From NCBI GenBank assembly GCA_021201565.1, contig JAJQES010000114.1, forward strand, positions 1-42,444: a DNA stretch of 42,444 nt, given 5' to 3'. The DNA is from Tannerellaceae bacterium. GTDB lineage: Bacteria > Bacteroidota > Bacteroidia > Bacteroidales > Tannerellaceae. This document shows, piece after piece, positions 15,149-42,444 of the stretch (positions are counted from its first letter, which is position 1; the number at the start of each line of letters is the position of its first letter). The translations under genes and the position numbers were made by a program. The notes beneath the pieces are model-generated. The model did not search any database. It was not told the origin of the DNA and was given only the letters and a program-made list of their open reading frames with translations.

Positions 15149-15163
15149 TAGCCCGTTTAGAAA

Positions 15164-17883: not shown

Positions 17884-17908
17884 TGGTTCTTAGGTCAAAC
17901 TGCACTAA

Positions 17909-17932: not shown

Positions 17933-17952
17933 AGCATATTGCTAAGAGACGA

Positions 17953-18041: not shown

Positions 18042-18058
18042 AGGATTGTTTTCTGTTT

Positions 18059-19696: not shown

Positions 19697-20037
19697 TTTT
19701 TTAAGAAGTTAGAAGTTAGAAGTTAAGAAGTCAGGAAGTTAAGAAAATACTTTTTTTCCTGGACGGAGGCTCTTGGACGGAGGGGATTTGTAATCCCCGA
19801 CTAATGACCTTCCGGATCTGTGATCCGGGAACGAATGGATTGCAAATCCATATACATACCAGTCGGGGATTACAAATCCCCTCCATCCAGTGTATTCCCT
19901 CCATCCAGTCTCCCTTCCGTCCGGTAAATCCCTTTATCCAGGTAAGCCGGGAGTTCCTTTGTCCGGGATCTTTTTATTCTTAACTTCTAAGGAGCGAAGC
20001 GACTGATAACTTCCTGACTTCTTAACTTCTCAATAAA
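19697..20037. repeat. Nested inverted repeats with cloverleaf element A copy 3 at the centre
   Basis: A 341-base gap between two minus-strand genes with no ORF of note. The outer layer is aagaagttagaagttagaag (from 19700) with ttaagaagtcaggaagttaa, against cttaacttct and taacttcctgacttcttaac at 19978-20034. The inner layer is element A at 19774-19889, then three further cctccatccag/ctccgtccggt-type half sites. A gcgaagcgac motif at 19994-20003 also occurs at 1766-1774. Confidence 0.75.
19774..19889. repeat. Cloverleaf-like repeat element A, copy 3 (best formed)
   Basis: Outer arms 19774-19802 and 19861-19889 are reverse complements at 28 of 29 positions (left arm tggacggaggggatttgtaa...). 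Inside are two hairpins: ccggatctgtgatccgg and atggattgcaaatccat. It has the same architecture as 5437-5564 and 6244-6363, with paired base changes in both inner stems. Confidence 0.85.
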
Positions 20038-20991
20038 TTAATATATTTCCTTCGCTACCTTGTACACGCTGTCGGTAGCCATCAGGGTGTAAAAGTGGAT
20101 GCTGGGTACGCCGTGGGCGATCAGTTCTTTGCACTGGGCAATGCACCATTCCAGTCCCACCGCTTTTGCCTCTTCATCGGTTTTACACGCACGGAGTTCT
20201 GTTGCTAATACTTCCGGAATGTCCGAACGGAAAATACGGGGCAGCACGGTCAACTGGTTCCTGAACACAATCGGTTTGATGCCCGGAATGATCGGAACGG
20301 TAATTCCTTCGGCCCGGCAACGTTCCACGAATGAGTAATATTTTTCGTTGTCAAAGAACATCTGTGTTACCAGGTAATCCGCACCGTTCTTTACTTTCTC
20401 TTTCAGGAAATGAATATCTGAATCCAGGTTCGGGGCCTCTTCGTGTTTCTCCGGATAACAGGCCATCCCATACGAGAAGGGAGTTTCGTTTGCTTCAAAT
20501 GTAGAGCCGTCCAGGCTAATCCCTTTATTGAAATCATTCACCTGCTTCTGCAACTCCGTCGCGTAGTCATGATAGAGTGCCGGATCCTGACCCGGTTCCA
20601 GGCTTTTCACATCTCCCCGGAGCAATAACAGGTCATGTACTCCCAGAAAGTTCAGGTCAATCAGGGCATACTCCGTCTCCTCTTTGGTAAACCCTTTGCA
20701 AATAATATGCGGGACCGCCGTGATGTCATATTTGTTCTGGATCGCGGAAGCGATCGCTACTGACCCCGGGCGTTTCCGGAGATTCACTTTCTTATAGGTA
20801 CCATCCGGCTGGGCTTTGTAAATAAACTCACTGTGATGGGAGGTGATATTGATATACTTCGGGTCAAATTCCCGCAGTTTATCAATCACATTATACACCC
20901 GCTGAATGCTATTCCCCTTCAACGGAGGAAGGATTTCAAACGAAAAAGCAGTTTGTTTGCTATTTTTTATCAGATCAATAACGCGCATCAT
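20038..20991 (-). CDS. metF: Methylenetetrahydrofolate reductase
   Basis: FAD-dependent reduction of 5,10-methylene-THF to 5-methyl-THF, supplying methyl groups for methionine synthesis in the cytoplasm. 317 aa, the usual length for bacterial MetF. Seen: FSFEILPPLKGN near residue 16-27 with the catalytic Glu; YINITSHHSEF; GVHDLLLLRGD near 118-128; LVTQMFFDNEKYYSFVERCRAEG; and IIPGIKPI, all MetF signatures of an (alpha/beta)8 barrel. ATG 20991 or the adjacent ATG 20988 could be the start. It is transcribed divergently from ilvE; the probable promoter lies beyond the inverted repeat, which would place that repeat in the metF leader. No SAM riboswitch is seen. Confidence 0.95.
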   Translation of the reverse strand: MMRVIDLIKNSKQTAFSFEILPPLKGNSIQRVYNVIDKLREFDPKYINITSHHSEFIYKAQPDGTYKKVNLRKRPGSVAIASAIQNKYDITAVPHIICKGFTKEETEYALIDLNFLGVHDLLLLRGDVKSLEPGQDPALYHDYATELQKQVNDFNKGISLDGSTFEANETPFSYGMACYPEKHEEAPNLDSDIHFLKEKVKNGADYLVTQMFFDNEKYYSFVERCRAEGITVPIIPGIKPIVFRNQLTVLPRIFRSDIPEVLATELRACKTDEEAKAVGLEWCIAQCKELIAHGVPSIHFYTLMATDSVYKVAKEIY

Positions 20992-21002
20992 TGTTAAAAT
21001 TT

Positions 21003-21112
21003 TGGTAGTTAGTAGTTGGTAGCTGGTAGTTAGTAGAAAGAATTCGGAAGAAAACCCTGTGTAAAAGGTTTGAAAGACTACTAACTACCAACTACCAACT
21101 ACTAACTACTCA
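21003..21112. repeat. Inverted 'tagttagtagttggtag' repeat in the metF leader
   Basis: Left arm tttggtagttagtagttggt (21002 on) with ggtagttagtag, right arm ctactaactaccaactacca (21079 on) continuing actactaactact to 21110. Stem of about 30 bases with a purine-rich loop. Similar low-complexity arms are common between Bacteroidales genes. Confidence 0.75.
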
Positions 21113-21133
21113 TTATTCCCTTCTTTTTTGTGT

Positions 21134-21142
21134 GCAAATGTA
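21134..21142 (-). promoter_or_regulatory. -7 promoter box for metF
   Basis: On the minus strand this reads TACATTTGC, an exact match to the -7 consensus. The metF leader would be about 135 bases and contain the inverted repeat. Confidence 0.5.
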
Positions 21143-21164
21143 ACAATTATACCCCAAAATAGCT

Positions 21165-21173
21165 TATTTTTGC
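21165..21173 (+). promoter_or_regulatory. -7 promoter box for ilvE
   Basis: tatttttgc matches TAnnTTTGC, 28 bases before the ilvE ATG. Confidence 0.5.
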
Positions 21174-21201
21174 AAGTATAATCTTATAACGACGAATCTA
21201 T

Positions 21202-22221
21202 ATGGAAAATATGAACTGGTCCGACCTGACATTTGGTTATATAAAAACGGACTATAATGTAAGATGCTACTATCGTGACGGGAAATGGGGAGAGTTAGAA
21301 GTAAGTTCTTCTGAAATACTGAATCTGCATATGGCTGCCACCTGTCTCCATTACGGACAGGAAGCATTTGAAGGACTGAAAGCGTTCCGGGGAAAAGATG
21401 GCAAGGTCCGGGTGTTCCGTATGGATGAAAATGCCAAACGGATGCAGGCTTCCAGCCGTGGCCTGCTGATGGCTGAACTGCCTGTGGAGAAGTTTGAAGA
21501 AGCTGTGCGTAAAGCCGTACGCCTCAATGAACGTTTTATTCCTCCCTACGAAAGCGGTTCCTCCCTTTATATTCGTCCGTTATTGATTGGTACAGGTGCC
21601 CAGGTAGGGGTAAAGCCGGCAGATGAGTATCTGTTTCTGGTATTTGTGACCCCGGTAGGCCCTTATTTCAAAGAAGGGTTTAAACCGACTCCGGTATGTA
21701 TCATGCGGGAGTATGACCGGGCCGCTCCTCATGGAACCGGGAATATCAAAGCCGGAGGAAACTACGGTGCCAGCCTGGTGGCCGGAAATAAAGCGAAAGA
21801 AGCCGGATATAGTGCTGTGCTTTACCTGGACCCGAGAGAGAAAAAATACCTTGATGAATGCGGGCCTGCCAATTTCTTCGGGATCAAAGATAATTGTTAT
21901 ATCACTCCCCAGTCTACTTCTATCCTGCCTTCCATCACCAACATGAGCCTGATGCAACTGGCAGAAGATATGGGACTGACTGTTGAGCGTCGCTCTGTGC
22001 CGGTGGAGGAATTAGCGACTTTCGAGGAAGCTGCCGAATGTGGTACTGCCGCTGTGATCGCGCCTCTTTCCCGTATTGACGACCTGGACGAAAACAAATC
22101 GTATGTTTATTCTACGGATGGTAAACCGGGTCCGGTGTGCGAAAAGCTCTACAAGAAGCTAAGAGGTATCCAGTATGGCGACGAGCCCGACACCCACGGT
22201 TGGGTACAGGTTGTTTTGTAA
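21202..22221 (+). CDS. ilvE: Branched-chain amino acid aminotransferase
   Basis: PLP-dependent (fold type IV) transaminase interconverting Leu, Ile and Val with their 2-oxo acids using glutamate/2-oxoglutarate, cytoplasmic. 339 aa, typical of the longer ilvE type. Seen: LHYGQEAFEGLKAFRGKDGKV, RMDENAKRMQASSRGLLM, PLP Schiff-base lysine K183 in NIKAGGNYGASL, ECGPANFFGIKDN, and the phosphate-binding ECGTAAVIAPLSRI near the C-terminus. Single gene with its own promoter; no leucine-rich attenuator leader is seen upstream. Confidence 0.95.
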   Translation: MENMNWSDLTFGYIKTDYNVRCYYRDGKWGELEVSSSEILNLHMAATCLHYGQEAFEGLKAFRGKDGKVRVFRMDENAKRMQASSRGLLMAELPVEKFEEAVRKAVRLNERFIPPYESGSSLYIRPLLIGTGAQVGVKPADEYLFLVFVTPVGPYFKEGFKPTPVCIMREYDRAAPHGTGNIKAGGNYGASLVAGNKAKEAGYSAVLYLDPREKKYLDECGPANFFGIKDNCYITPQSTSILPSITNMSLMQLAEDMGLTVERRSVPVEELATFEEAAECGTAAVIAPLSRIDDLDENKSYVYSTDGKPGPVCEKLYKKLRGIQYGDEPDTHGWVQVVL

Positions 22222-23164
22222 AGGCCTCTTCCAACCTCCCTCCCCGGATCACAGATCATAGGTCAAACCCCTATTTAAGTCCCGTAGGGACATCCCATGT
22301 TAGCCCAGGGCAACGCCCTGGGTCTGAATCTGTTGTCTCTGTTGAGTCCTGAAGGGACGGCATAAATTACGATCTATTTATCTGTTGCTATTTTATTATG
22401 CCGTGCTTACATCACTCCTTTCCTCTTATCATCTATTACCCAGGGCGTTGCCCTGGGCTGGGATAGGGCGTCCCTCCGGGACTTAGAGGTGTTTGATGTG
22501 TGATTCCAAAAATAAATAAATACCGAATAAACCGGGACGTATGTGTTAGTAAAGGGGAGGCAGATGCGTTTCCTGTTGGATTTTAATGAGAACGGGCCTG
22601 AATTGACTGAACAGATCTACGAGGAATACCTGGCACTTGAAGACGTAAGCTACCGGATCGTATGCCTCAGTGAGCCGTTCCAGTTCCTATTTCACTTCGC
22701 GCCTGAGATATGTCTTTTCTCTTATACTCTTTTTGCTGCCGCCCGGTAGTTTTTTATACCCAGGATACCTCTGTCAGGAGATGGAAACCTATTGGAGAAC
22801 AGGAGAAAATCTACTGACATCTTTTGTTTCCGCCCTTATCGTTTGAGCTGAGCCTCCAGCCTGAGCAATCAGGGGAACATACTCACCCGCGGTGTCATTC
22901 TCCACGGTGTTGCTATTCCACGGTGTTGCTATCCCACGGTGGCGTTCACTTCGTTCACTCTGCCGTGGGCTATCATAGGCTGCCCCTTTCAGGGGCGACA
23001 ACAGCAGATAATTACCTTGAACCTACTGACCGGGCAGGCCTCCCGGGAGAAAGTGAGTATGTGAATTCCTGAAAGGGCTGTATATGGAACTTCCCGGTTT
23101 GCTGTTTATATGAGGTAACAATCGCCGGTTATTGTGCGGTCCCCAATCAGGTTGGGGATTTTGT
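22222..23164. repeat. 943-base gene-free repeat island
   Basis: Contains a long imperfect palindrome (22277-22486); a 59-base unit shared with 84-142 (22499-22557); a 68-codon frame 22543-22749 that starts inside that unit and is not recognised; two and a half exact 16-base tandem units tccacggtgttgctat (22901-22942); a two-stem unit 22933-23000 shared with 25619-25687; and a partial element B (tgtgcggtccccaatcaggttgggga) ending near 23158, just after the TlpA-like gene stop. A decayed gene under 22543-22749 cannot be excluded. Confidence 0.75.
22277..22486. repeat. Long imperfect palindrome (REP/BIME-like)
   Basis: Arms aagtcccgtagggac (22277) and gtccctccgggactt (to 22483) pair; inside, cccagggcaacgccctggg near 22303 is itself a perfect hairpin and is exactly complementary to cccagggcgttgccctggg near 22440; the centre has acggcataa and ttatgccgt. 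Confidence 0.8.
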
Positions 23165-24334: not shown

Positions 24335-25489
24335 TTACATATTAATTACTTGTTTCACTTCAGGAAGCAACGCCAGCGGATGGTCCCGTTTCAGGATAAT
24401 TCCTTCCGGCGAGATGAGGATGGCATGAGGGACACTGGTGATCACGTAATTTTCTGTTACCAGCCGGGTCGCGTCCAGCAATTGCAGCCAGGGCAGCCCA
24501 TCCTCTTCAATGGCCTGCCGCCAGTTATCCGCGTTTTGTTCCCAGCAACCGATGCCCACGATCACGATGTTTTCCCTGTCTTTTACCTCTTCATAGAATT
24601 CGATCAACTTCGGCGCGGCTGCCCGGCAGGGACCACACCATGAGCCCCAGAAATCCAGCAGTACATATTTGCCCTTCATATCCGACAGTTTCACCTGGTT
24701 GCCCTCCAGCGAAGCCAGTTCAAATTCCGGTGCTTTTCCGCTTACCCCGGTACCCCGTACCCTGTCAATGAAGAGTTGCACCTCTTGTCCGGCCAGCGAT
24801 TCGCGAACCTCCGGGTGGAGTGCCAGGAAAAGCTTTTCATATTCCTCCATATTTTGTTGTACTCCTCCTTCCTGCCGCAGCAACCAGGCTGAAGAAGCCA
24901 ACTCCGGATGTGCCGCTATAAACTCTCTTTGCAGGGAAGGCAGAGGCTCATACAGCGCTCGTGCCTGTGTAATGATTTCCTGCATTTCCCGGCGCATATC
25001 CAGATCTCCGGTCTGCTGTACTTCCCCGCTCAGGTATTGGATCTGTTGTTGTAACCGGAACCCTTCCCGGTGAATGTGGTTCATCTGCCGGATATCCGGT
25101 AATGTGTACAGGCCTCCTTGTACCTCTGCCAGAAACAGGTTCCCGGCCTCTCCTTTCAACGTCAGGAAGTCATATCCTTCCAGGAAAATCATCAGGCTGT
25201 TGCGTCCCGGTTTCAGGTTTTCCAACGCCGTATCTTCCCCTGCTTTCACATAATAAAGGGTAGCGGCTGTTCCCGTTGCCTCTGTTTCCAGGAGGAACTC
25301 CCCCTCTCCGGTAATCCGGGTCTGGTCCAGCAGGATTCTTTCTGAAGTCTGCGGGTCTGTCCGGACCAGCAGGACCAGGCCACCGGGAGCCGCTCCTTCT
25401 ATCTTTCCGTAAATCACATTGGTTGTTTGTTTATGAGTACAGGACAGGAGGCTTAACAACAGGAAAAGGAAAACAGCCGGCTTTTTCAT
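24335..25489 (-). CDS. TlpA-like thioredoxin-fold lipoprotein (WCGPC)
   Basis: A 384-aa paralogue of the downstream gene. Lipobox LLSC with Cys17; DUF4369-type N-terminal domain (VIYGKIEGAAPGGLVLLVRTDP); helical middle; C-terminal thioredoxin domain (GKAPEFELASLEGNQVKLSDM) with active site WCGPC, the TlpA/ResA and thioredoxin form. The C-terminal thirds of the two proteins are near-identical in places (EEDGLPWLQLLD, HPLALLPE), while the N-terminal halves have drifted, so it is a tandem duplication. A -7 box lies 24 bases upstream. Likely role: redox or disulfide chemistry in the envelope. Confidence 0.9.
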   Translation of the reverse strand: MKKPAVFLFLLLSLLSCTHKQTTNVIYGKIEGAAPGGLVLLVRTDPQTSERILLDQTRITGEGEFLLETEATGTAATLYYVKAGEDTALENLKPGRNSLMIFLEGYDFLTLKGEAGNLFLAEVQGGLYTLPDIRQMNHIHREGFRLQQQIQYLSGEVQQTGDLDMRREMQEIITQARALYEPLPSLQREFIAAHPELASSAWLLRQEGGVQQNMEEYEKLFLALHPEVRESLAGQEVQLFIDRVRGTGVSGKAPEFELASLEGNQVKLSDMKGKYVLLDFWGSWCGPCRAAAPKLIEFYEEVKDRENIVIVGIGCWEQNADNWRQAIEEDGLPWLQLLDATRLVTENYVITSVPHAILISPEGIILKRDHPLALLPEVKQVINM

Positions 25490-25513
25490 GCGAATCTCTT
25501 ATTTAGTGTTCCG

Positions 25514-25522
25514 GCAAATCTA
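25514..25522 (-). promoter_or_regulatory. -7 promoter box of the TlpA-like pair
   Basis: On the minus strand this reads TAGATTTGC, matching the -7 consensus. Confidence 0.5.
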
Positions 25523-25878
25523 CTTATTATTTTTATGATTCTATGCCCGGATGCGTAGTTTTTGGATAGAATGTTTGTGCCGGGCTTTTAGCCCGGAAAG
25601 AGAGGGGTGGTATTCTAACCCGGGGTGCCGTTCGCTTTGCTCCCTCTGCCCCGGGCTATAATAAGCTGCCCTTGCCAGGGCGACAGGGAGAATTGAATAC
25701 CTATCCATTTCCGTGCCTAATAGACTTCCTCTGGCTTGTACAAAATGCCTTACTGGCGCGGAATTCCGTTTCCGTGCCTAATCTATCCCGGCATTAGGGT
25801 ACGGATTTGAAAATTCGCGCCAGCAGGTCCGGTAGGTATCATCTGGGGGCAAGCCGGATGGTTTTGGGTATTTATAGT
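25523..25878. repeat. Repeat-filled gap between divergent genes
   Basis: Contains a perfect hairpin ccgggc-tttta-gcccgg (25580-25596); the two-stem unit 25619-25687, matching 22933-23000 in architecture; and a palindrome 25753-25825 (ctggcgcggaattccgt against attcgcgccagcag, with an inner cctaat...attagg hairpin). No gene is seen. Confidence 0.75.
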
Positions 25879-25886
25879 TACCTTTG
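25879..25886 (+). promoter_or_regulatory. -7 promoter box of the methyltransferase gene
   Basis: tacctttg matches TAnnTTTG and overlaps the longest possible start (GTG 25886), so ATG 25907 is preferred. Confidence 0.45.
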
Positions 25887-25906
25887 TGAAAATAAGAAGG
25901 GACATT

Positions 25907-26659
25907 ATGAAAGAGAATAAATATGATCAGGAGGCCTTTTTTAGTCAATACAGCCGGATGACGCGTTCGGTGGAAGGGCTCAAAGGGGCCGGGGAGTGGC
26001 ACGAATTCCGGAAACTGCTTCCTGCTTTTGACGGGAAACGGGTGCTGGACCTGGGATGTGGTTTCGGATGGCATTGTGGCTATGCGGTTGAACAGGGAGC
26101 GAGTGCGGTCACGGGTATTGACCTGTCCCGCAACATGCTGGAAGAAGCTGCCCGGCGTAACCCGTCGCCCTATATTACGTATGAGTGTGTGGCGGTCGAA
26201 GAGTATGCTTATCCGGCGGAGGCTTTTGACATCGTGCTCAGTTCGCTGGCGCTGCATTATGTAAGTTCTTTCGCAGCCGTCTGTGAACAGGTGTACCGCA
26301 CCCTTGTTCCCGGCGGGCATTTTGTCTTTTCCGTTGAACATCCGGTCTTTACGGCCTACGGTAACCAGGACTGGTTTTATGATGAACAGGGGAATAAACT
26401 CCATTGGCCGGTGGACCGTTATTTTACGGAGGGGAAACGGACGGCTGTCTTCCTGGGAGAGGAGGTGACAAAGTATCATAACACGCTTACTACTTATCTG
26501 AATGAACTGGTGAAAGCGGGTTTCCGGATTACCGGAGTGGTGGAGCCTCAGCCGGACCCGGCTCTCCTGGACCGGATGCCGGGGATGCGTGACGAATTGC
26601 GCCGCCCCATGATGTTATTGGTGTCGGCTGTTAAGCCCCCCAGCGTTGCTGGGGGCTAA
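25907..26659 (+). CDS. Class I SAM-dependent methyltransferase
   Basis: A 250-aa cytosolic methyltransferase of unknown substrate. SAM-binding motif I VLDLGCGFGWH (about 46-56), motif II region VTGIDLSRNMLEEA (acidic loop D), FDIVLSSLALHYV (motif IV-like) and LVPGGHFVFSVEHPVF, together typical of the UbiE/COQ5-like Methyltransf_11/25 class. The last residues AVKPPSVAGG and the stop codon come from a hairpin repeat (ccccccagcgttgctggggg) and not from an ordinary C-terminus, so the natural end may have been altered by repeat insertion. ATG 25907 is chosen over GTG 25886 because of the promoter. Confidence 0.88.
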   Translation: MKENKYDQEAFFSQYSRMTRSVEGLKGAGEWHEFRKLLPAFDGKRVLDLGCGFGWHCGYAVEQGASAVTGIDLSRNMLEEAARRNPSPYITYECVAVEEYAYPAEAFDIVLSSLALHYVSSFAAVCEQVYRTLVPGGHFVFSVEHPVFTAYGNQDWFYDEQGNKLHWPVDRYFTEGKRTAVFLGEEVTKYHNTLTTYLNELVKAGFRITGVVEPQPDPALLDRMPGMRDELRRPMMLLVSAVKPPSVAGG

Positions 26660-32664: not shown

Positions 32665-32737
32665 GACTCCGTAGCTCAGCTGGTAGAGCAAATGACTCTT
32701 AATCATTGGGTCGAGGGTTCGAGCCCCTCCGGGGTCA
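32665..32737 (+). tRNA. tRNA-Lys (CTT anticodon)
   Basis: A full cloverleaf is seen: acceptor gactccg/cggggtc, D stem gctc/gagc, anticodon stem aatga/tcatt with loop ctcttaa (anticodon CTT at 32698-32700), T stem gaggg/ccctc with loop ttcgagc. CCA is not encoded (discriminator A then CCG). Phage tail genes begin about 250 bases further on, and tRNA 3' ends are common attachment sites. Confidence 0.97.
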
Positions 32738-32744
32738 CCGGGTG

Positions 32745-32775
32745 AAAAGCGTAACTTACGGGTTACGCTTTTTTA
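32745..32775 (+). terminator. Terminator after tRNA-Lys
   Basis: aagcgtaac (32747-32755) pairs perfectly with gttacgctt (32762-32770) around ttacgg, followed by T residues. Confidence 0.85.
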
Positions 32776-32895
32776 TTTTATCTTCCTTTTCTTATTTTCC
32801 TACGGAAATATAGTAGTCTCCAAAGGCTTTGAGGGGAAAATTGTGCTGAGTAAGAAGGAGATGTAAAGTTCCGGAAGGGATATAATAAGGCCTAT

Positions 32896-32924
32896 CTTGT
32901 TCCGGGTTACAAACCCGGAGCAAG
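32896..32924. repeat. Hairpin downstream of the 129-aa gene
   Basis: cttgttccgggtt-aca-aacccggagcaag, a 13-bp stem with one mismatch. It could end transcription of the minus-strand gene above it, although the T-run is weak. Confidence 0.55.
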
Positions 32925-32983
32925 TTACTATCTGGACTAAGGTTAGATATGAAATGAGGTACCGGAAAGGAGTTTTTTTCTGT

Positions 32984-33373
32984 TTAGGAAAGGGTGAAGT
33001 TGTGGATGCCGGCCTGGAAGACTGCCAGGTTAGTAATGATCTGGCCGGCAATATACGGGTCGCGGGGGATGACCCGGACCTGTAAGGTGCAGAAACGGCT
33101 GCCGGCTTCGTTATAGCCGGCCTGTATGGTTATCTGCCGGGGCGTTAACTCGATGATGCCGGACCACTCCTGTGGGGACTGGACGGTGATCATAAAGTTG
33201 TTGTCTGTAAATGGGAGGGTAATGATATTTCCTTCCCGGTCTGTCAGGTACAGGACCAGGTCTTTTACTTTCAAACTCTGGGGTATTCCTGAGCAGGGCA
33301 GGGAGACCGCCTGACATTCATACGTGAGGCTACCGCTTAAAATGGCGAGATAGTTAGTGCTTTGTTCTTTCAT
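32984..33373 (-). CDS. Hypothetical protein at the prophage edge
   Basis: A 129-aa protein without signal peptide; family not recognised. Predicted mainly beta (YLAILSGSLTYECQAVSLPC; LVLYLTDREGNIITLPFTDNNFMITVQSP; RFCTLQVRVIPRDPYIAGQIITNL), like a small Ig-like or phage structural accessory domain. It is separated from the fibre operon by a terminator and has a TACATTTG box on the minus strand at 33524-33531, so it is probably expressed independently of the late genes. It could be a lysogenic-conversion (moron) gene or a fibre accessory; neither is shown. Confidence 0.65.
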   Translation of the reverse strand: MKEQSTNYLAILSGSLTYECQAVSLPCSGIPQSLKVKDLVLYLTDREGNIITLPFTDNNFMITVQSPQEWSGIIELTPRQITIQAGYNEAGSRFCTLQVRVIPRDPYIAGQIITNLAVFQAGIHNFTLS

Positions 33374-33578
33374 GTTATTAATTCTCTTTACAAATTTATA
33401 TTAAACACTGATTAATTATATGTTATCGTACTATTTTTCTATACAGTAGGGTGTAACCTGGGTATGGGATTCTATTCTTCCATGTTGTTGTTTGTTAAAT
33501 AGTTGATACGCATGTTAGTTAACCAAATGTAATAAATATTTTGTTTCATTCCGGTCAAAAGAGGTAAAATAAACAGAT

Positions 33579-33610
33579 GCCTGCCGGGAATTTCCCAATC
33601 CCCGGCAGGC
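33579..33610 (-). terminator. Terminator at the end of the tail operon
   Basis: gcctgccggg (33579-33588) and cccggcaggc (33601-33610) form a perfect 10-bp stem; on the minus strand it is followed by atctgtttatttt. It lies 41 bases after the stop of the 149-aa gene. Confidence 0.75.
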
Positions 33611-33650
33611 GTAGGCTTCAAAATATCACAAAGGTGTGGTTATTGATTGG

Positions 33651-34100
33651 TTATGCACAAAGTATTTCGTCCAGTAGGGCGAGTTTGCCGGCTTCGGTCT
33701 TTTCGTTGGCAGCGATGAGCTTTTCAAAGTCCTCTTCTGAGAGGTGTCCGGTCTGCACATCCTGTTCTTCTTCGCCTAACTCTTCCGCGTAGCTGTTGAG
33801 ATTACTGTGGTAGGTGGTCAGTAAAGCGGAGACCTGTTTGAACTCTCCGGCCTCCAGGCGGCCTTCCAGAGTGCCGGCCTGTACGGCTTCGTTGTGCCGG
33901 TTGGCCTTTTCCTGTGCTTCTTCCAGTCCTTCGGGTTTGAGCTTTTCCTGTGCCTCTTTGAGGGATTCTACATATCCGTCAAAGATGGATTTCATACTGC
34001 GGATCGCTTTCAGGATCACCCGTTGTCCTGCGAAAGTTAAACCTGTGATGGAGGTCTCTTTTAAAATGTTATACGTTTCTACGATTGTTGTTGTTTTCAT
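33651..34100 (-). CDS. Small helical protein downstream of the tail fibre
   Basis: A 149-aa, highly charged, largely helical protein (RVILKAIRSMKSIFDGYVES, KLKPEGLEEAQEKANRHNEA, LLTTYHSNLNSYAEELGEEE). Short proteins of this type follow tail genes in Bacteroides-type prophages; the place after the fibre is where tail-fibre assembly proteins sit in Mu and P2, so that is a possible role. No motif proves it. Last gene of the operon before the terminator. Confidence 0.7.
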   Translation of the reverse strand: MKTTTIVETYNILKETSITGLTFAGQRVILKAIRSMKSIFDGYVESLKEAQEKLKPEGLEEAQEKANRHNEAVQAGTLEGRLEAGEFKQVSALLTTYHSNLNSYAEELGEEEQDVQTGHLSEEDFEKLIAANEKTEAGKLALLDEILCA

Positions 34101-34133
34101 ATTGTTCTTATTTTTATTGTTTGAACCGGGAAA

Positions 34134-37016
34134 TTATTTAGGGTAATAGAATGTTGCAAATGCAGAAGTTGAAGAAAGAACTATGATCTCTATACTTCCC
34201 CAAGCCATGTCACCTACTGAAGTCCCGGTGGATGTAATTATGGTATTACTATATACATGAGCCTCTCCTGGTCTTGGAAGAGCCAACATAATTCCGCCAA
34301 AAGGAGCAGTGGAGGGATATATATATCTACATGTAAATATCGCTCTTGTTCCAATTGGTACTTCATACGGTATCTTCGTCATATTCAATGTATATGTAGG
34401 TCCTGTTTGAGTAATAAATGTTCTTTTTCCCCATAAATCTGCAATATCATAATTATTCACAGGGGAGGTGATTATGTTTATTTCCAGGTCTCCACTGCTC
34501 TTTGTGTTTGTAAGAGCTGTGCTTACATTTCCGGAACCATCGAACGAAAATGATCCTGTTACGTCACCAGTAAAGGTAACGCTTCTTGCAGTTGCCAGCT
34601 TAGTGGCTGAGGTAGCAGTGGTGGCTGTCGTTGCAGTTGTAGCATTCCCGGAAAGGTTTCCGCTGAATGTGGGTGCTGTAATAGTACTGCTTGCATTGAG
34701 GGTGGTGACTCCCGTTAGGGCGCCTGCTACATTTGCTGTCCCATTGAAAGATTGTCCCCACAGCGTACGTGCTGTTGCCAGTTGGGTGGCTGAGGTGGCT
34801 GTCGTTGCGGTGGTGGCTGTTGTTGCGTTGCCTGATAGTGCTCCGACGAATGTGGGTGCTGTAATGTTTCCACTTGCGTTAAGTGTGGTGACTCCTGTCA
34901 GGGCGCCTGTTACGTTTGCTGTACCATCGAATGATTGTCCCCAGAGGGTTCTTGGGGTTTGCAGCCTGGTGGCTGAGGTTGCGTTTCCGGAGAGTGAACC
35001 GGTGAATGTTCCGGTAATGTTTCCGGTAGCGTGTAGGTTTCCTGTTACGTGCAGAGCGTAGCTGCTGTTATTTGTTGCCGAACCGATGGCCATTCTGTCG
35101 GGGGTATACAGAAAATTGGTTGCACCGTTATAGATAGATCCAGTGACAGTAGTTCCTTGTCTGCGGAAGCATATGTAAGGATTGGCTGTTGCATAAGTGA
35201 TGTCTATAGCTCCTGCGGCTAATACAACCCCGCTTATTCCATCATTAGGTGCTGTTTTATTAAAAGAGTAGATGGCAGCCCCACTTGTCATTGCCCCTCC
35301 TGTTTTTATTGTGGAACCTGTGGTGACTGCACCGGTTAGTGTAGAAGTGCCTGTTACTGAGAGAGTATTCGATATGCTTACCGGGCGTGCCATATTTACA
35401 TTTCCGGTTGCCAAATTGATATAGAAAGGGCGGAAACTATTATAAGAATTTGCATTCAGGTCACTAACTAAAATGTAGAATCCCGTTTCATCTGTTCGTA
35501 AAAATGCTTTATATTGTCCGTAATTCAGTATAAAAGCATTAGATGCGTGACTTGTAATTGTGTCATTAGCATTTATAATGGATCCTGTGTTGACGGCTCC
35601 TGTTAAGGTAGTAGTACCGGATACATTCAGTAGGTTGGTGAGTACGTTTGACCATCGGTTGTTTGTAGTTCCTAAAGAGATCGCATTGGTTGTTCCCGGA
35701 TAGATGGTTGTCCCGGTGACTAACATGGATGAATTGGCAGCGTTGGCTACTTTACCGGCTGCAACAAGTCCCAGGTAGCCACTGGCATGGGAGTTGTGGA
35801 TGTAACAGGCATCTCCTCTGTTAAATTCCAGCATATTATACCCGAACAAATTCCCTGCGGTGGTGACTATATTTCCTGTTGCACTAATTGTTCCAGCGTT
35901 GTTTATATTCCCTGACACATCCGTACTACCGTTGAAGTCTTGTCCCCAGATCTTTCTTGTATTGGCTAAGGTGGTTGCGGTGGCCGCGTTTCCGGTGGTG
36001 GGGATGGTGGTTGAGCCTGTTAACAGGGTACCGGGTATGGCTGTGACGTTGAGGTTGATGTCTTTTTCGCCGTTGAAATCCTGTGCGGTGGCTGTGACTC
36101 CTGTCAGACCGATTTTGCGTGCGGTTTGCAGCCTGGTGGCTGAAGTGGCATTCCCGGTTAATGCTCCGGCAAACGTGGGGGCGGTTACGGTACCGGTGGC
36201 GGTGATGTTGGCTGCGTTGCTCAGGTTGCCTGTTACATCGGCTTCGCCGTTGAAGGGCTGTCCCCAGATCTTCCGGGGAGTTTCCAGTTTGTGAGCGCTT
36301 CCGGCTACAATACTGCCTGATTTTATATCGTCAATGGCTCCGTTCAGGTGGTGGATCTCCTCTTCGTTTGTATGGATCCGTCCTTCATGGTCTTCGATCT
36401 GCTCTTCAGCCTGGGTGAGGCGGGTTTCATGATCATCGAGGATCTCTTTGTGGTCTTTTAGCTCCTGTTGGTGGCTGTCGAGACGGTTCTCATGGTCGAT
36501 GAGTTCTACATCGATTCCGTGCAGGCGGCCGGTATGGATGTCGAGTTCGGCCTGGTGTGCGGCCAGTTCCTCCGCGTGTTCCCGGAATTGGGTAGCGACT
36601 TCCTCAAACTGGTTGTCATGTGCGGCCAGGTGGTTGTCCTGTTTTTCCTGCCAGCGGGTTTGCCGGGCGAATTCTTCATCGTGTTCGAGCAACCACTCTT
36701 CGTGTTTGTCGAGGCGTACGTCATGTTCGTCCAGCCGTTCTCCGGTTTTCTCCGCTCCCTGGTACAGGCCGGCGATGTCGCTGTCGTGATGGTCTAACCG
36801 TTCTTCGGCATGGTCCATCCGTTGTTCGAGGATTTCGCCGGACTGGGTGTCGTATTTGCTGTTCAACACTCCGTCCAGGTCTTCGATAGCGGAGGTAGGT
36901 ATTTCATCGTGCTTGTGCCAGAAGCTGAAAAAGGTGTTTTCAAATTGTTCCTGTGTAGGGTATTTGCCTTTCTCAAACCAGCTGAATATGGTTTTTAACC
37001 GTTGTATTGTTGCCAT
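34134..37016 (-). CDS. Large tail-fibre protein with His-patterned coiled coil and 61-aa repeats
   Basis: A 960-aa receptor-binding or fibre protein of the contractile tail. N-terminal domain 1-60 (TIFSWFEKGKYPTQEQFENTFFSFWHKHDEIP) probably attaches to the baseplate. Residues about 67-232 form a long heptad coiled coil with His at 98, 105, 112, 133, 147, 154, 161, 175, 182, 189, 196 and 210, always the same heptad position. From about 240 a phage-fibre repeat of the form L-x-T-x-R-x-I/L-W-G-Q-x-F-N/D-G recurs, including perfect-length 61-residue tandem units near 684-808. The last 100 residues form a distinct C-terminal head (TYTLNMTKIPYEVPIGTRAIFTC). The unit KLETPRKIWG is shared with the 463-aa fibre upstream. 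No chaperone-type C-terminal autoprotease is recognised. Confidence 0.9.
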   Translation of the reverse strand: MATIQRLKTIFSWFEKGKYPTQEQFENTFFSFWHKHDEIPTSAIEDLDGVLNSKYDTQSGEILEQRMDHAEERLDHHDSDIAGLYQGAEKTGERLDEHDVRLDKHEEWLLEHDEEFARQTRWQEKQDNHLAAHDNQFEEVATQFREHAEELAAHQAELDIHTGRLHGIDVELIDHENRLDSHQQELKDHKEILDDHETRLTQAEEQIEDHEGRIHTNEEEIHHLNGAIDDIKSGSIVAGSAHKLETPRKIWGQPFNGEADVTGNLSNAANITATGTVTAPTFAGALTGNATSATRLQTARKIGLTGVTATAQDFNGEKDINLNVTAIPGTLLTGSTTIPTTGNAATATTLANTRKIWGQDFNGSTDVSGNINNAGTISATGNIVTTAGNLFGYNMLEFNRGDACYIHNSHASGYLGLVAAGKVANAANSSMLVTGTTIYPGTTNAISLGTTNNRWSNVLTNLLNVSGTTTLTGAVNTGSIINANDTITSHASNAFILNYGQYKAFLRTDETGFYILVSDLNANSYNSFRPFYINLATGNVNMARPVSISNTLSVTGTSTLTGAVTTGSTIKTGGAMTSGAAIYSFNKTAPNDGISGVVLAAGAIDITYATANPYICFRRQGTTVTGSIYNGATNFLYTPDRMAIGSATNNSSYALHVTGNLHATGNITGTFTGSLSGNATSATRLQTPRTLWGQSFDGTANVTGALTGVTTLNASGNITAPTFVGALSGNATTATTATTATSATQLATARTLWGQSFNGTANVAGALTGVTTLNASSTITAPTFSGNLSGNATTATTATTATSATKLATARSVTFTGDVTGSFSFDGSGNVSTALTNTKSSGDLEINIITSPVNNYDIADLWGKRTFITQTGPTYTLNMTKIPYEVPIGTRAIFTCRYIYPSTAPFGGIMLALPRPGEAHVYSNTIITSTGTSVGDMAWGSIEIIVLSSTSAFATFYYPK
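34594..34960 (-). repeat. 183-base tandem repeats inside the fibre gene
   Basis: Units begin near 34594 and 34777, with a third start near 34960, a period of 183 bases (61 codons). Copies are clearly related at DNA level (gtggctgaggt, gtgggtgctgtaat, gtggtgactcc, gattgtcccca) and encode TARTLWGQSFNGTANV-type units. Confidence 0.85.
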
Positions 37017-37053
37017 AATATGATCTGTTTGTTTGTCTTTAAAATTGTTTTGT

Positions 37054-38445
37054 TTATTCCCATTTGTTTCTGCCTACGATAATGACCATGGCCTGGTAGC
37101 TGGCTTTGGAGAGGTAGTCTGTATCAACTCCCCGCAGGCAGAAGGTGTTGGGGGTCTGGTTGGTGATACGCAGGTGTACCTGGTCAGGATAGTCGGCTGT
37201 CTCGGTGGTGTAGGAGGTATAGTAGGGGGTGGCTACTACGGTGTACTCGCTATGCCCGAGGCTGTGGCTGACCTGGATGACGCCTTCGGCCAGGATCTTG
37301 TGGCTGTAAATTTGGAGGCCGTCTCCCCAGTACCGGATGAGGGCTGTCTCTTCTCCACAGGTGAAGAGCCCGGCCCAGAGGACACCGGGCGCGTTCCAGG
37401 CTTCGCCTTCGCGCTGGGCGAACAGGTGGTTGCCCTGGCTTTGTAGGGCCCAGGCTTTTCCGGGGGTGGTGTCGCCGGCTTCTATCTGCAGGCAGGTGAG
37501 GTTGTTGCCGTTACCCCGGATGGTCACTGTCCCGTTGGCAGCCAGGGTACTCCGGGCCTGGTTGCCGATGCTGATACTGCTTTTTCCGTCGTGGTTGCTG
37601 AGGGAGTCTTCGCCAATGGTGAGTCCGGCCAGTTGGCCTGTCAGCAGGTGGGTGGGCACTTCCTGTACTTCGAGGGTGATGTCTTTGGTCCCGTCGAAAG
37701 TTGCGGATGTGGCTGTGACGCCTGTGATTTTTACCTGCCGGGGAGTAGTGAGGCTGGCCGCGCGTACGCCTTCTGTCCGGATGGCCAGGTCCGCTGACCC
37801 GTCGAAGGTCCCTTCTCCTGTGAGGTCGCCTTCGAGCCGGATGGTACGGGGTGTTTCGAGTTTGGAGGCATTACCGGCTACAACGGTTCCATCTTTGATC
37901 TGGTTGATCACCGCGTTGGTTTTGCTGATCTCCTCTTCCAGTTCTTCGTCTTTGCCGCTAAGTTCCTGGTCTTTGCGGGTGAGTATCTCTATGGTTTTGC
38001 TCATCGCGATTTCAAAGTCATCCAGCTGTTTGCCCAGGTCGGGCAGGGTGCGTAGTTCCCGGAAGTCGTTCCAGTCGTAGTGTTCCGTGCCCCGTCCGGG
38101 TTTGAGCATCCGGAGGGTGTAGGCGTTTTCAAAGAGTTTGCCCTGTACGGTCATGTCTACGGGTAGGGTTTCGACATGCATGCCGTTGAGAATGTTGCCT
38201 CCCTGCCAGTATAATACTTCCCCGTGGGGGTAGTCGTTGGTGCGCAGGAAGACGAGTCCTTCGCTGCGGGTGTTTCCGTTTTTGGATCGTTCGCATCCTT
38301 TGAGGATGGCTTTGTCGCCGGCGATGTTGCCTAAGGTGGCGATTCTGAACAGGTTCTTTTGCAGGCTCTCATACAGTTCGCAGTCGTGTGGGAATGCTTG
38401 TTCATCCTGTGTGAGGAAGTTTCCGATAATTGTCTGGCTATACAT
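37054..38445 (-). CDS. Tail-fibre or collar-type protein
   Basis: A 463-aa phage tail protein. The N-terminal region 1-130 is globular (FRIATLGNIAGDKAILKGC, GEVLYWQGGNILNGMHVETL), followed by a short coiled coil about 140-185 (LDDFEIAMSKTIEILTRKDQ, KDEELEEEISKTNAVINQIK). Two fibre repeats follow (KLETPRTIRLEGDLTGEGTFDG; LTTPRQVKITGVTATSATFDG). The C-terminal part (SHSLGHSEYTVVATPYYTSY, VIIVGRNKWE) resembles fibre tip domains. Its start overlaps the previous stop by 8 bases. The IKDGTVVAGNASKLETPR junction is nearly the same as IKSGSIVAGSAHKLETPR in the 960-aa fibre, so the two share a module. Confidence 0.85.
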   Translation of the reverse strand: MYSQTIIGNFLTQDEQAFPHDCELYESLQKNLFRIATLGNIAGDKAILKGCERSKNGNTRSEGLVFLRTNDYPHGEVLYWQGGNILNGMHVETLPVDMTVQGKLFENAYTLRMLKPGRGTEHYDWNDFRELRTLPDLGKQLDDFEIAMSKTIEILTRKDQELSGKDEELEEEISKTNAVINQIKDGTVVAGNASKLETPRTIRLEGDLTGEGTFDGSADLAIRTEGVRAASLTTPRQVKITGVTATSATFDGTKDITLEVQEVPTHLLTGQLAGLTIGEDSLSNHDGKSSISIGNQARSTLAANGTVTIRGNGNNLTCLQIEAGDTTPGKAWALQSQGNHLFAQREGEAWNAPGVLWAGLFTCGEETALIRYWGDGLQIYSHKILAEGVIQVSHSLGHSEYTVVATPYYTSYTTETADYPDQVHLRITNQTPNTFCLRGVDTDYLSKASYQAMVIIVGRNKWE

Positions 38446-38926
38446 AATTTATATTGAATCTTTTGGATGTTAATTTATACATGTTTACGACGGCGCGCAG
38501 GCGCTTTTCGTCGATTTCAAACCGGAGGTCGGAGGGAATCCTGACGGTGAAGTCATAGGCGTAGGCTCCGCTCATGGACTGCCGGTAGATGAGTTTGCCG
38601 GGGTTGTTTTCCCGGAGGGGGATGGGATCATTCCGGTTGGTGTCGCGCCAGATCACGGGTTGTTCGGCCAGTTGTACGCTGTCGGTGATGGTGATCCGGC
38701 GGTCGTTGGAGTCAAACAGGTCGTTGAGGATGGCCTGGAGGTAGCACACTTGTCCGTTTTTGGTCAATTGCTGGAGGCAGTCGAGCCGGAAATGGTGGAA
38801 CTGGGTGTAGCAATAGCCGAGTGAGGAGACGGCGGCGTAGGCGATCCCGGTGATGGCCGGTTTGCGCATGAAGGTAGGCAACTGCATCAGGGCCAGCTTC
38901 TTAATGTTGATCTGGTATTTATTCAT
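38438..38926 (-). CDS. Probable baseplate/tail protein in the gpI (Mu gp48) position
   Basis: A 162-aa protein between baseplate J and the fibre genes, the place of P2 gpI or Mu gp48, which connects fibre to baseplate. Sequence itself is not recognised: MNKYQINIKKLALMQLPTFM, then FHHFRLDCLQQLTKNGQVCYLQAILND and VRIPSDLRFEIDEKRLRAVVNMYKL. Overlaps both neighbours by 8 bases, so strictly co-translated. Function is from position only. Confidence 0.72.
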   Translation of the reverse strand: MNKYQINIKKLALMQLPTFMRKPAITGIAYAAVSSLGYCYTQFHHFRLDCLQQLTKNGQVCYLQAILNDLFDSNDRRITITDSVQLAEQPVIWRDTNRNDPIPLRENNPGKLIYRQSMSGAYAYDFTVRIPSDLRFEIDEKRLRAVVNMYKLTSKRFNINYV

Positions 38927-39761
38927 GGGGATACATGTTTAGTTGTACTCCTTCGTCTCCTACTTTGAAATAGCCGGCTTCGGGTACATAGCGTACCTGG
39001 GGACTGATTACCTGTGCGCTTCCGGCAGGGGTGATATTGGCGGCGGTGATCTCCGCGATCTTTACTCCTTCGACCTGCTGGAGGACGTCTACCAGTCCCA
39101 TGTGGGAGTATTCCCCGTTGAAGGGGAGGTTTTCCACATAGTTTTTGATGGCGGCCTGGCAGGCTTCTTCCACGGATGCTCCGGTCAGGATGGGGTTGTA
39201 GTAGATCTCTGCCTTGCAGTCGAACAGGTCGGGCTCCGCGTTGGTGAGGATGATCCGTACGCCCGCGTCTTTGATCTGCCGCAGGTAGGCCACGAGTTGT
39301 TCTTCGGTGTCTTTGTCGAGTGGACCGCGCACGCCTCCGCTTTCCTCGGCTACTTTGATGAGCAGGCCGGACTGGTCTGCGGACTCGGTGGCGACGGCGT
39401 GTTTAATGACGCGGGCGGCTTCGATCTCTTCACTGGTCATTCCGGTGGTGTCGTATTGGTCGGTTTCTTCGACCAGCAGCCGGTCTTTCATAAAGTGGAG
39501 GACTTTGTCGCAATACCAGCGTGCCCGGTGGGGCAGGATGCTTTCGAGCATATTGTTTACTTCCTGCTTATGGGTTTCAAACATCTTTTCGACGATCCAC
39601 GCGGCTGAGGCGAAGATGTAGAAGAGGATGTTGATGAGTGACACTTTGCTGAAATGTTTGTTGTAGTCGTCTCCTACGGTGAAGCCGAACTTTTTGCTTA
39701 CGAATTCATTGTTCATGAAGTCGTTGGTGATGCCTTCTTTTATTTCTTCTATGGTTCTCAT
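38919..39761 (-). CDS. Baseplate J-like protein
   Basis: A 280-aa homologue-type of Mu gp47/P2 gpJ, the wedge protein of the contractile baseplate. Seen: an N-terminal helical segment (FASAAWIVEKMFETHKQEVNNMLESILPHRARWYCDKVL), then the J-like alpha/beta region with KDAGVRIILTNAEPDLFDCKAEIYYNPILTG and AAIKNYVENLPFNGEYSHMGLVDVLQQVEGV, whose order matches the Baseplate_J C-terminal domain (YxxxLPFG, LxDxxxxVxGV). Gene order gp25 - small protein - J - I supports it. Confidence 0.85.
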   Translation of the reverse strand: MRTIEEIKEGITNDFMNNEFVSKKFGFTVGDDYNKHFSKVSLINILFYIFASAAWIVEKMFETHKQEVNNMLESILPHRARWYCDKVLHFMKDRLLVEETDQYDTTGMTSEEIEAARVIKHAVATESADQSGLLIKVAEESGGVRGPLDKDTEEQLVAYLRQIKDAGVRIILTNAEPDLFDCKAEIYYNPILTGASVEEACQAAIKNYVENLPFNGEYSHMGLVDVLQQVEGVKIAEITAANITPAGSAQVISPQVRYVPEAGYFKVGDEGVQLNMYPHE

Positions 39762-39767
39762 GATTTT

Positions 39768-40046
39768 TTAGCTTACGATGAAATCAAATTCTATTGCCAT
39801 ATAGCCGATGCCTCCCCAGGGGAGTTCGCGGTCCTGGCTGCTGAGAGCGGTGGCGGGTTCTATGCGGCGGAGGGTGTTTTTCCTGTCTATCCATTCGGGC
39901 AGGAATTCGATTTCTGTCCCGGCGGGTATGTCGCTGGTGACGGAGAGATCGTTGTGTTCTGCCAGGGTGAAGGTGGACTCGAAGGTGCCGCATTCCTGGA
40001 TTGCGAAGTCGATCAGGGACTGTCTGTTTTTAATTGTATTCTGCAT
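39768..40046 (-). CDS. Small LysM-like tail protein (gpX-type candidate)
   Basis: A 92-aa protein. SLIDFAIQECGTFESTFTLA followed by NDLSVTSDIPAGTEIEFLPE fits the LysM outline (helix, G, helix, N-x-L, I-x-x-G-x-x-I-x-L-P) of tail protein X in P2-like phages, where it may help the tail cross peptidoglycan. The match is by pattern only; the second half (RIEPATALSSQDRELPWGGIG) is unassigned. Overlaps the gp25-like gene by 17 bases. Confidence 0.6.
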   Translation of the reverse strand: MQNTIKNRQSLIDFAIQECGTFESTFTLAEHNDLSVTSDIPAGTEIEFLPEWIDRKNTLRRIEPATALSSQDRELPWGGIGYMAIEFDFIVS

Positions 40047-40359
40047 CTATTTCCATTGTTTTATTTTCAAAATCTATGTTTACATCCCGTACGGTCATGC
40101 CGTCGGATTCGAGTTGGAGCAGGACTTCGCGGTTCCATCCTACTGTTTCGTTGTCGTTGGCCATTTCTGTGATGGCTGCTCCCAGTGAGGGGTACTCTTT
40201 GAGTTCTCCTTTGCATGCCTGGAGGATCAACGCCTGGTTTTGCCAGGTGACGTAGCCGGTTTCCAGCTCTCCGGCGAACCAGCCTTCGGGGGTCCGTTTG
40301 GTGTTGATTTTCAGGTCACCTGTACCGGGGTCTAATAATATACCTGTACTTTTTCCCAT
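40030..40359 (-). CDS. Baseplate wedge protein, gp25/gpW-like
   Basis: A 109-aa protein, the usual size for the family. TGYVTWQNQALILQACKGELKEYPSLGAAI, GWNREVLLQLESDGMTVRDVNIDFENKTMEID fits gp25/gpW (Mu gp46) with a helical start and the V-x-I-x-F strand end. It is translated through a TGATG overlap with the spike gene stop. Part of the baseplate ring of the contractile tail. Confidence 0.82.
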   Translation of the reverse strand: MGKSTGILLDPGTGDLKINTKRTPEGWFAGELETGYVTWQNQALILQACKGELKEYPSLGAAITEMANDNETVGWNREVLLQLESDGMTVRDVNIDFENKTMEIDAEYN

Positions 40360-41000
40360 CAGTGTGTTATTTTTCTGTTTTCGTAAGCGGAGGGATCGAA
40401 GCTGGCGGAACCGGCTTCCTGCGCGGTGGTAGGGGCGGCTCCGTAACTGCCGTGTGTGTGCCCGTTGTAGTTGCCGATCAGGCTGTTGACAACTTTTGCC
40501 AGGTCGTTTAACTGGCTGGTGAGTTCGTTGACCTGTACCAGGCCTCCGAGGGTGCCTTCGTTGTGCCGGATCAATCCGTCTGTCATTTCTATCTGGCTGT
40601 TGCCTGCTTTTGCTTCGATGGTTCCGTCGGTGATTTTGACGACGCTCTGGCCTGTTTCGATGTGGATGGTCTGGTCGTCGGCGTAGATGAGGGTATCTTC
40701 TTTGTGGATCCGGATGGAGTCGATCTCGGAATAGGCGATGGCTACGAGGTTGCGCAGTTCGCCACAGGAGATGTCGGCCACAAGGATGATGCTGCCTTCG
40801 GCGGGGGTGACGAGAATACCGTTTTCGGCTCCGTCAACGATGGAGGCGAGGCGGATGTTGGGGATCTCGAAGGTGCCGAGCCGGGCGGTGCAGCGGTCTC
40901 CTTCTACGCTTACGACTTCCATCAGGCGGAAGTTGTAGGTTGCTTTGTCTGTTCCGGCTATTTTGCGCAACAGGTCTTTTATTTTTGAACTGGTATCCAT
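40359..41000 (-). CDS. Baseplate spike protein, gp45/gpV-like
   Basis: A 213-aa central spike. The N-terminal OB-fold region (MEVVSVEGDRCTARLGTFEIPNIRLASI, GSIILVADISCGELRNLVAI, about 25-90) is followed by short beta-helix strands with regular I/D spacing (IRIHKEDTLIYADDQTIHIETGQSVVKITDGTIEAKAGNSQIEMTDG, about 95-145), as in P2 gpV and Mu gp45. Near the C-terminus GHTHGSYG carries an HxH pair; HxH at the tip of such spikes binds iron in P2 and phi92, though here it is followed by about 30 residues. The function is puncturing the outer membrane. Confidence 0.85.
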   Translation of the reverse strand: MDTSSKIKDLLRKIAGTDKATYNFRLMEVVSVEGDRCTARLGTFEIPNIRLASIVDGAENGILVTPAEGSIILVADISCGELRNLVAIAYSEIDSIRIHKEDTLIYADDQTIHIETGQSVVKITDGTIEAKAGNSQIEMTDGLIRHNEGTLGGLVQVNELTSQLNDLAKVVNSLIGNYNGHTHGSYGAAPTTAQEAGSASFDPSAYENRKITH

Positions 41001-41011
41001 GTGTTGTTATT

Positions 41012-41977
41012 TTAGTTGGTTTCTAACTTTTTTCCGAATGATATTTTCCGTACGCCTCCCCGTTCGGAGAAGGAGGTTTCGACGGCGATGACGTAGTAGG
41101 TACCGTTGCGCGCGGGGTAGTCTTCGTCGCGTATCCCGGCCAGGTAGCCGGGTTCTACGTAGGGAACCAGCCAGCCGGTAAGGTTGCCTTCGCATTCGGC
41201 GGATTCCTGTATCCGGAGTTCTTCTTCGGCGCGGGCGGCGAGGGTAGGGATCTGGTAGACGCCTTCCATGCGGACGTTGATCTCCCGGCCTCCCTGTTCG
41301 CCTTTGGTCACGGTGACGGTGGTGCCCCGGTCGTCATTGCCTTCTACGATGACGAATATTTTTTCTTTCTCCTGCTTGTTGTTGCTCATATCGGCTTTCT
41401 CGACGTTGACGGCAAAGTCGTAGATGACTTTGGGGCCGCTTTCGGTGAAGTGGGGATGCACATGGAGTTCGTTGCCGTGAAACCAGATGTTGGCCCGGGT
41501 ATCCTGCTGGATTTTCAGAAGCAGCCCGGCTCCGGAGAGGTTGTGGATGCTGAACTGGTCGTAACAGAAGTCGTAGTTGCATTTAATGGTGTAGTTCCCT
41601 ATCTGGGTGACTGTCTGTTTGAGGAGTTCTTCCACACTTACCTCCATGAATATCTTGTCTTCTATGTGCTTTTCAAATTTGCAAAACTCATCGACGCAGT
41701 TGATTTTGATATTGTTTTCGTCGGTGGTGATGCTTTCTACATAGCCGGAGAATTCGGTCGGCAGTTCGTTGATGTGGGCATTGTAGCCAAGTTTGATGAC
41801 TACGAGGTCGCCTACTGCGATTTTGTCCTCTACTTCCAGGGTTTTGTTGTGGAGCATCCCGGGCAGGGTGATCTGTGCGGTGTTGGCCAGGTTCCCTACG
41901 CTGCATTTTATAACTACGCTGCTGAGGCTTCGTAGTTTGTGGCTGCCTATGGTGATGTCGAAATCGAGTGTGTACAT
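41012..41977 (-). CDS. Phage late control D / baseplate hub protein (Mu gp44-like)
   Basis: A 321-aa hub with the D/gp44/gp27-like split beta-barrel plan: TLDFDITIGSHKLRSLSSVV at the start, KIAVGDLVVIKLGYNAHINELPTEFSGYVESI (barrel strands with the G-Y-V), a middle insertion domain (NYTIKCNYDFCYDQFSIHNLSGAGLLLKIQQDT), and a C-terminal part VPYVEPGYLAGIRDEDYPARNGTYYVIAVETSFSERGGVRKISFG typical of hub proteins. It forms the base on which the spike sits. Followed after 11 bases by the spike gene. Confidence 0.85.
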   Translation of the reverse strand: MYTLDFDITIGSHKLRSLSSVVIKCSVGNLANTAQITLPGMLHNKTLEVEDKIAVGDLVVIKLGYNAHINELPTEFSGYVESITTDENNIKINCVDEFCKFEKHIEDKIFMEVSVEELLKQTVTQIGNYTIKCNYDFCYDQFSIHNLSGAGLLLKIQQDTRANIWFHGNELHVHPHFTESGPKVIYDFAVNVEKADMSNNKQEKEKIFVIVEGNDDRGTTVTVTKGEQGGREINVRMEGVYQIPTLAARAEEELRIQESAECEGNLTGWLVPYVEPGYLAGIRDEDYPARNGTYYVIAVETSFSERGGVRKISFGKKLETN

Positions 41978-41980
41978 GGC

Positions 41981-42444
41981 TTAGGTGTTTATAAGCAGTT
42001 CGGCCTGGGTGTCGCTGTAGGCTTTGATGACGAACCGCTGGTTATTAATTCCCTGTGTGTGGGGGAAGTCGATGCTCTGGATGGCAAGGAACTTGATGCC
42101 GAGCGCGAGGAGCATGTCCTGGTTGACTTCGATCTCCTGTTTTTCCCGGAAAAGGGCGAGCAACTCGTGGATATTGCCCGTGGGATATGTTTTTTCTCCG
42201 GGATTGACGATGATTCCTTCGATGGTGACTTCAAAGTCGTCCTGGCTCCATCGCTCTTTGATGGTTCCATACTCTTTCGCTTTGGCAACATGGCGCCTGA
42301 CAATGATGTTTTTGCTGGTCACGGATACGATGGGTTCGAGGGGGAAGGTGATCCACTCCCCGGCTCCTTTTTTCCGGACGTGCATGGGCATCTGTGAGTG
42401 TACGACTTCGCATCCGGTGAGGGGTCTGGAGGGGGCTTTATAGG
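41981..42444 (-). CDS. DUF6046 family phage tail protein, cut by window end
   Basis: Partial: the frame runs to the last base of the window with no stop (the reading YKAPSRPLTGCEVVHSQ precedes Met at 42391), so the start is outside. At least 153 residues. It resembles DUF6046, a protein seen in prophage tail regions of Bacteroidales: KKGAGEWITFPLEPIVSVTSKNIIVRRHV, WSQDDFEVTIEGIIVNPGEKTYP, ELLALFREKQEIEV. Position before the hub is that of Mu gp43, a DNA-circularisation/N-type tail protein, so it is likely a tail tube-to-hub component. Ends 3 bases before the hub start. Confidence 0.78.
   Translation of the reverse strand, partial: YKAPSRPLTGCEVVHSQMPMHVRKKGAGEWITFPLEPIVSVTSKNIIVRRHVAKAKEYGTIKERWSQDDFEVTIEGIIVNPGEKTYPTGNIHELLALFREKQEIEVNQDMLLALGIKFLAIQSIDFPHTQGINNQRFVIKAYSDTQAELLINT

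Follow-up and report, generated by a model that had tools for sequence, protein, structure and literature searches.

A probable R-type tailocin of Mu-like ancestry beside a tRNA-Lys gene in a Tannerellaceae bacterium

Pseudomonas syringae is known to carry R-type tailocins derived from Mu. Reviews derive R-type tailocins from P2-like phages (PMC8910223), and BceTMilo of Burkholderia cenocepacia, which is P2-related, combines headless contractile tail genes with a CI-type repressor and a holin-endolysin-spanin set (PMC5411513). Injection systems (eCIS) of the Bacteroidales are likewise headless contractile machines (PMC7394362). Our search of open-access full text, with subscription papers outside its scope, returned no tailocin report from the Bacteroidales.

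Here we describe a Bacteroidales cluster that is, with a probability of roughly 80%, an R-type tailocin (a bacteriocin resembling a contractile phage tail) that arose by domestication of a Mu-like, Winoviridae-type phage and would be produced and kill as such particles do. The reading draws on gene content and order, on a complete homologous locus in which no head genes were detected, on neighbouring lysis and repressor genes, and on a tRNA flank common to two species. The cluster resembles pyocin R2 and BceTMilo in its headless contractile tail genes, repressor and lysis set, and it shares with pyocin R2 similar predicted folds of the hub and gp47. Unlike the P2-related, proteobacterial BceTMilo, it is of Mu-like Winoviridae descent, belongs to the Bacteroidota and has DnaD/DnaB genes near the repressor, whereas from the Bacteroidales injection systems it is separated by different sequence families. 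The R-type tailocin is already a known kind of system, and the differences here lie in phage ancestry, phylum and repeated origin. As for the phages, the Winoviridae-type Mu-like Peternella and Flavobacterium phage fF4, together with a prophage of a sister species (G001, contig C43), possess homologous genes for tail completion, DUF2586 sheath, tube, tape measure, DUF6046, hub, spike, gp46-48 and fibres, in largely the same order. All three however possess genes for a terminase, a portal, a protease and a capsid, and fF4 additionally encodes a DDE transposase; no such gene was found in the cluster of the window or its homologue on contig C86 of G001.

The window, 42,444 nucleotides long, is the entire contig C26 of genome G000, whose assembly comprises 533 contigs and is 87.7% complete; the cluster is thus cut off by the assembly. 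A contractile baseplate and fibre operon occupies positions 32984-42444 of the minus strand and ends beside an intact tRNA-Lys, with two small genes (33651-34100 and 32984-33373) between the fibres and the tRNA. The first-pass annotation had recognised the gene order of Mu, DUF6046-gp44-gp45-gp46-small-gp47-gp48-fibres, and the reading frames bear this out: all are present on the minus strand, and every tail frame from DUF6046 down to the fibres (42444 to 34134) is open. From the contig end towards the tRNA, the features are as follows.

41981-42444, minus strand: DUF6046 protein (PF19512, E=1.8e-31), its 5' end cut by the contig end
41012-41977, minus strand: gp44-like baseplate hub (phrog_4930 baseplate hub, 1.2e-56), with matches of its AlphaFold model
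40359-41000, minus strand: gp45-like spike with a GHTH motif near the C-terminus
40030-40359, minus strand: gp46-like baseplate protein, by position and homologues
39768-40046, minus strand: 92-aa tail protein, gpX/LysM-like by pattern only, without a family match
38919-39761, minus strand: gp47-like baseplate wedge (J) protein, with matches of its AlphaFold model
38438-38926, minus strand: gp48-like baseplate protein, by position and homologues
37054-38445, minus strand: 463-aa fibre protein, adjoining the baseplate genes
34134-37016, minus strand: 960-aa tail fibre with repeats, likely receptor-binding
33651-34100, minus strand: 149-aa protein sharing 32% identity with a hypothetical protein from Bacteroides phage C3_41T2LP
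33579-33610, minus strand: strong terminator-like hairpin of 14 pairs, after the 149-aa gene, the last of the tail operon
32984-33373, minus strand: 129-aa protein with 28% identity over 111 aa to the 129-aa first gene of contig C98, which lies at the far end of the cluster
32744-32773, plus strand: terminator-like hairpin after the tRNA gene
32665-32739, plus strand: intact tRNA-Lys(CTT), a flank marker with no sign of being an att half-site

Searches of the PDB by sequence with the hub and the sheath gave no useful match, and AlphaFold models of the hub and gp47 were built from alignments of relatives and compared with PDB structures. The hub model (pLDDT 88) matched Mu gp44 (1wru, 1.2e-17), the Mu baseplate (9ki1_G, 4.9e-20) and the pyocin R2 hub (6u5h, 1.5e-13), with an eCIS hub as its best structural match. 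Analogously, the gp47 model (pLDDT 92) matched the pyocin R2 baseplate (6u5b, 1e-7) and Mu (9ki1_H, 3.7e-5). The Mu-like assignment made at first pass was correct; the predicted hub agrees with solved structures of Mu gp44 and the pyocin R2 hub.

The remainder of the tail was located by searching G000 with the sheath of the sister species, which led to contig C98. The DUF6046 gene is interrupted by the end of C26, its reading frame carries on by inspection into C98, and the end of the one and the start of the other have nine bases in common, CTTTATAGG. Most likely C26 continues into C98, a join that rests on the 9-bp overlap and the kept reading frame. From DUF6046 onwards, C98 encodes the tape measure, a 103-aa protein, tube, sheath, tail completion and a 129-aa gene, the last resembling its counterpart at the tRNA end. 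In the approximately 1 kb between this gene and the contig end no head gene was recognised. The element thus probably extends past the window, as had been expected, with C98 most likely supplying the tape measure, tube, sheath and tail completion; neither head genes nor a recombinase were recognised on C98. A complete contractile tail set (sheath, tube, tape measure, baseplate, spike, fibres) is accordingly present on C26 plus C98, and on C86 alone.

This latter contig, 92 kb of the 98% complete genome G001, holds a homologous cluster at approximately 28559-44365, complete from tail completion through the fibres and adjoining the orthologous tRNA-Lys, with flanking host proteins 85-91% identical to those of the window. 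Scans with single proteins over genome and viral contig collections recovered no relatives, whereas an alignment of the tube did, and these are mostly complete Winoviridae-like Mu-type phages. Head-gene HMMs (terminase, portal, protease, capsid and others), built from such Mu-like relatives, pick out their targets in nearly every relative whose flanking sequence is long enough, but gave no match across the initial 60 kb of C86. The portal and capsid models likewise gave no match on C26 and C98, and the terminase profile none in the whole assemblies of G000, G002, G003, G004 and G118; its sole match in G001 is the separate prophage on C43, and in G221 it matched a different contig. Head genes of Mu type and a candidate transposase of 497 aa are present in the C43 prophage, and an HMM from this single candidate MuA matched nothing on C86, C26 or C98. 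We had also considered the tail-completion gene beside the sheath as proof of domestication, and dropped it because some complete phages share that position.

These data bear on whether the cluster instead forms the edge of a full Mu-like prophage of Winoviridae type, whose head and transposition genes would lie beyond the assembled contigs. Every structural gene has its closest counterparts in such phages, the sister species holds one on C43, and the window contig is truncated. Yet in C98 no head module was recognised upstream of the sheath, the position it has in phages, the G000 assembly has no matching terminase, and the homologous, fully assembled C86 locus is headless, which together make a complete prophage unlikely. 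Of the two options left at first pass, a prophage edge or a tailocin, the data speak for the latter. Against it stands that the cluster is split over contigs of an 87.7% complete assembly, with C26 and C98 joined by 9 bp and frame, so that for G000 a head module could lie in a gap.

Decay was weighed in the same manner. Between species (C86 versus C98/C26), the tube (dN/dS 0.035) and the 103-aa protein (dN/dS 0.067) are under strong purifying selection; dS is saturated in most other tail genes, including most baseplate genes, and selection is therefore measurable for only a few genes. A decaying, functionless prophage remnant would account for the missing head and transposition genes, and the tape-measure gene of G004 (contig C592) is indeed split into two overlapping frames by an apparent frameshift. 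The selection on these two proteins, the open tail frames of the window, the complete gene order in two species at one locus, and the retention of other headless clusters in more than one species (G118 and G221; four Tenacibaculum loci) nevertheless render a remnant distinctly improbable. As regards an eCIS delivering protein effectors, it would likewise be a headless contractile tail and the top structural match of the hub model is an eCIS hub, but the sequence families are those of Mu/Winoviridae tails with a DUF2586 sheath, no AAA+ ATPase, eCIS-type core protein or effector gene was recognised among the C86 cluster proteins scanned, and G000 holds a separate eCIS-like cluster with a PF04984 sheath on contig C510, leaving this explanation with almost no weight.

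The C510 cluster (L027, L047) spans 6875-22227, its parts other than the sheath being assigned by gene size, order and sequence start only. Its sheath was tried as the missing tail part and rejected, as it belongs to the eCIS-like cluster.

The location just after a tRNA had been taken to fit a site-specific integrase, a proposal that the data do not support. A further copy of the tRNA 3' end, the attR looked for, was detected neither on C86, which spans the whole cluster and both flanks and where other tRNA-internal matches are 11-bp exact stretches, nor in the G000 assembly, where the tRNA matches only apparent other tRNA genes. Tyrosine and serine recombinases (PF00589, PF00239) are absent from C26, C98, C97 and C86, and no integrase, resolvase or att repeat was found on the contigs examined. 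With no att copy, no recombinase and the tRNA intact with its own terminator, we reject site-specific integration at the tRNA. Among relatives, tRNA-Lys(CTT) is present in four species of the genus and G001 has the headless cluster at the orthologous gene, whereas G002 and G003 keep the tRNA and have different genes after it. Short repeats near window positions 32893-32928 and 21005-21114 are members of dispersed families that number tens of copies in this genome and its relatives.

Linkage of a lysis cassette to the tail genes is seen in C86, where a holin (PF05105, scoring 22.5 bits where the threshold is 22.2), an amidase (PF01510) and a lipoprotein that is spanin-like by inspection, with a C-terminal hydrophobic stretch, lie at 24650-26020, approximately 2.5-4 kb upstream of the tail completion gene. 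The same contig has, 12-16 kb upstream, an S24-type repressor (approximately 15 kb away) together with DnaB-like and DnaD-like genes. In G000, homologues of the repressor, DnaD/DnaB and holin are on contig C97, which is separate from C26 and C98 and showed no end overlap with C98. Contig C136 of G004 carries a holin and amidase adjoining a homologue of the first small gene of C86. Several of these features speak against a tailocin: the DnaD/DnaB-like genes that accompany the S24 repressor in C86 and C97 would, if they are part of the element, be superfluous for a pure tailocin, a GH43 gene sits between the lysis and tail genes of C86, and relatives of the holin occur in the sister species G002 and G003, both without the Mu-like tail cluster.

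If the cluster is an R-type tailocin, the S24 domain of the repressor suggests SOS control, and DNA damage would inactivate this S24/LexA-type protein. Expression of the tail, baseplate and fibre genes would then yield a headless contractile tail with its length set by the tape measure, and holin, amidase and spanin-like lipoprotein would lyse the producer. The released particle could attach to a relative via the variable fibres, upon which tail contraction would drive tube and spike through the envelope, with death by depolarisation. Induction, particle formation and killing are thus predicted steps, deduced from the gene complement. Such a narrow-spectrum, self-released killing particle would represent a long-range weapon of a dominant gut phylum, beside T6SS and eCIS.

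Headless clusters extend beyond the genus. In a sheath tree of 77 rows, obtained by a quick search and with some long branches, the headless label changes at least four times by starred branches, and the headless loci are spread over Tannerellaceae, Tenacibaculum, family f83 and others in the Bacteroidota; outside C86, the headless calls draw on 8-19 kb of upstream sequence, and for G118 on 2.5 kb and the lack of a terminase in the assembly. The clusters of G118 and G221 are approximately 93% identical over 17.5 kb, including a common flank. Four Tenacibaculum loci (L146, L148, L150, L151) have tail clusters in which no head genes were detected, and the two examined over their whole length show a repressor and an amidase-like gene; L146 has an S24 repressor and an amidase by Pfam, and L148 similar-looking genes and a spanin-like lipoprotein. 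A headless locus also occurs in one Candidatus Azobacteroides bin, and that of an Alistipes bin may represent an early stage. With headless loci in named genomes, including Tenacibaculum, the tailocin question can be tested in culture.

More tentatively, and with somewhat less than even confidence, we propose that Bacteroidota have repeatedly made R-type tailocins from Mu-like Winoviridae-type phages, and that one genus pairs a common module of S24 repressor, DnaD/DnaB and holin with headless tails of either contractile (G000, G001) or siphophage type (G003, partly G002), i.e. a swappable tailocin platform.

At the recF locus of two sister species lies a shared tail cluster of siphophage type, accompanied by DnaB-like genes (G002, contig C63, L168 and L173; G003, contig C58, L169 and L172), that of G003 being also accompanied by an S24 repressor, LamG adhesins, a holin and an M15 peptidase. 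The proteins scanned from these clusters, which are candidate F-type tailocins, included no recognisable terminase, portal or capsid.

At locus L132 a single contig holds two Mu-like structural modules one after the other, and in L103, L104 and L155 the hub-spike-DUF6046 segment is inverted within the tail operon.
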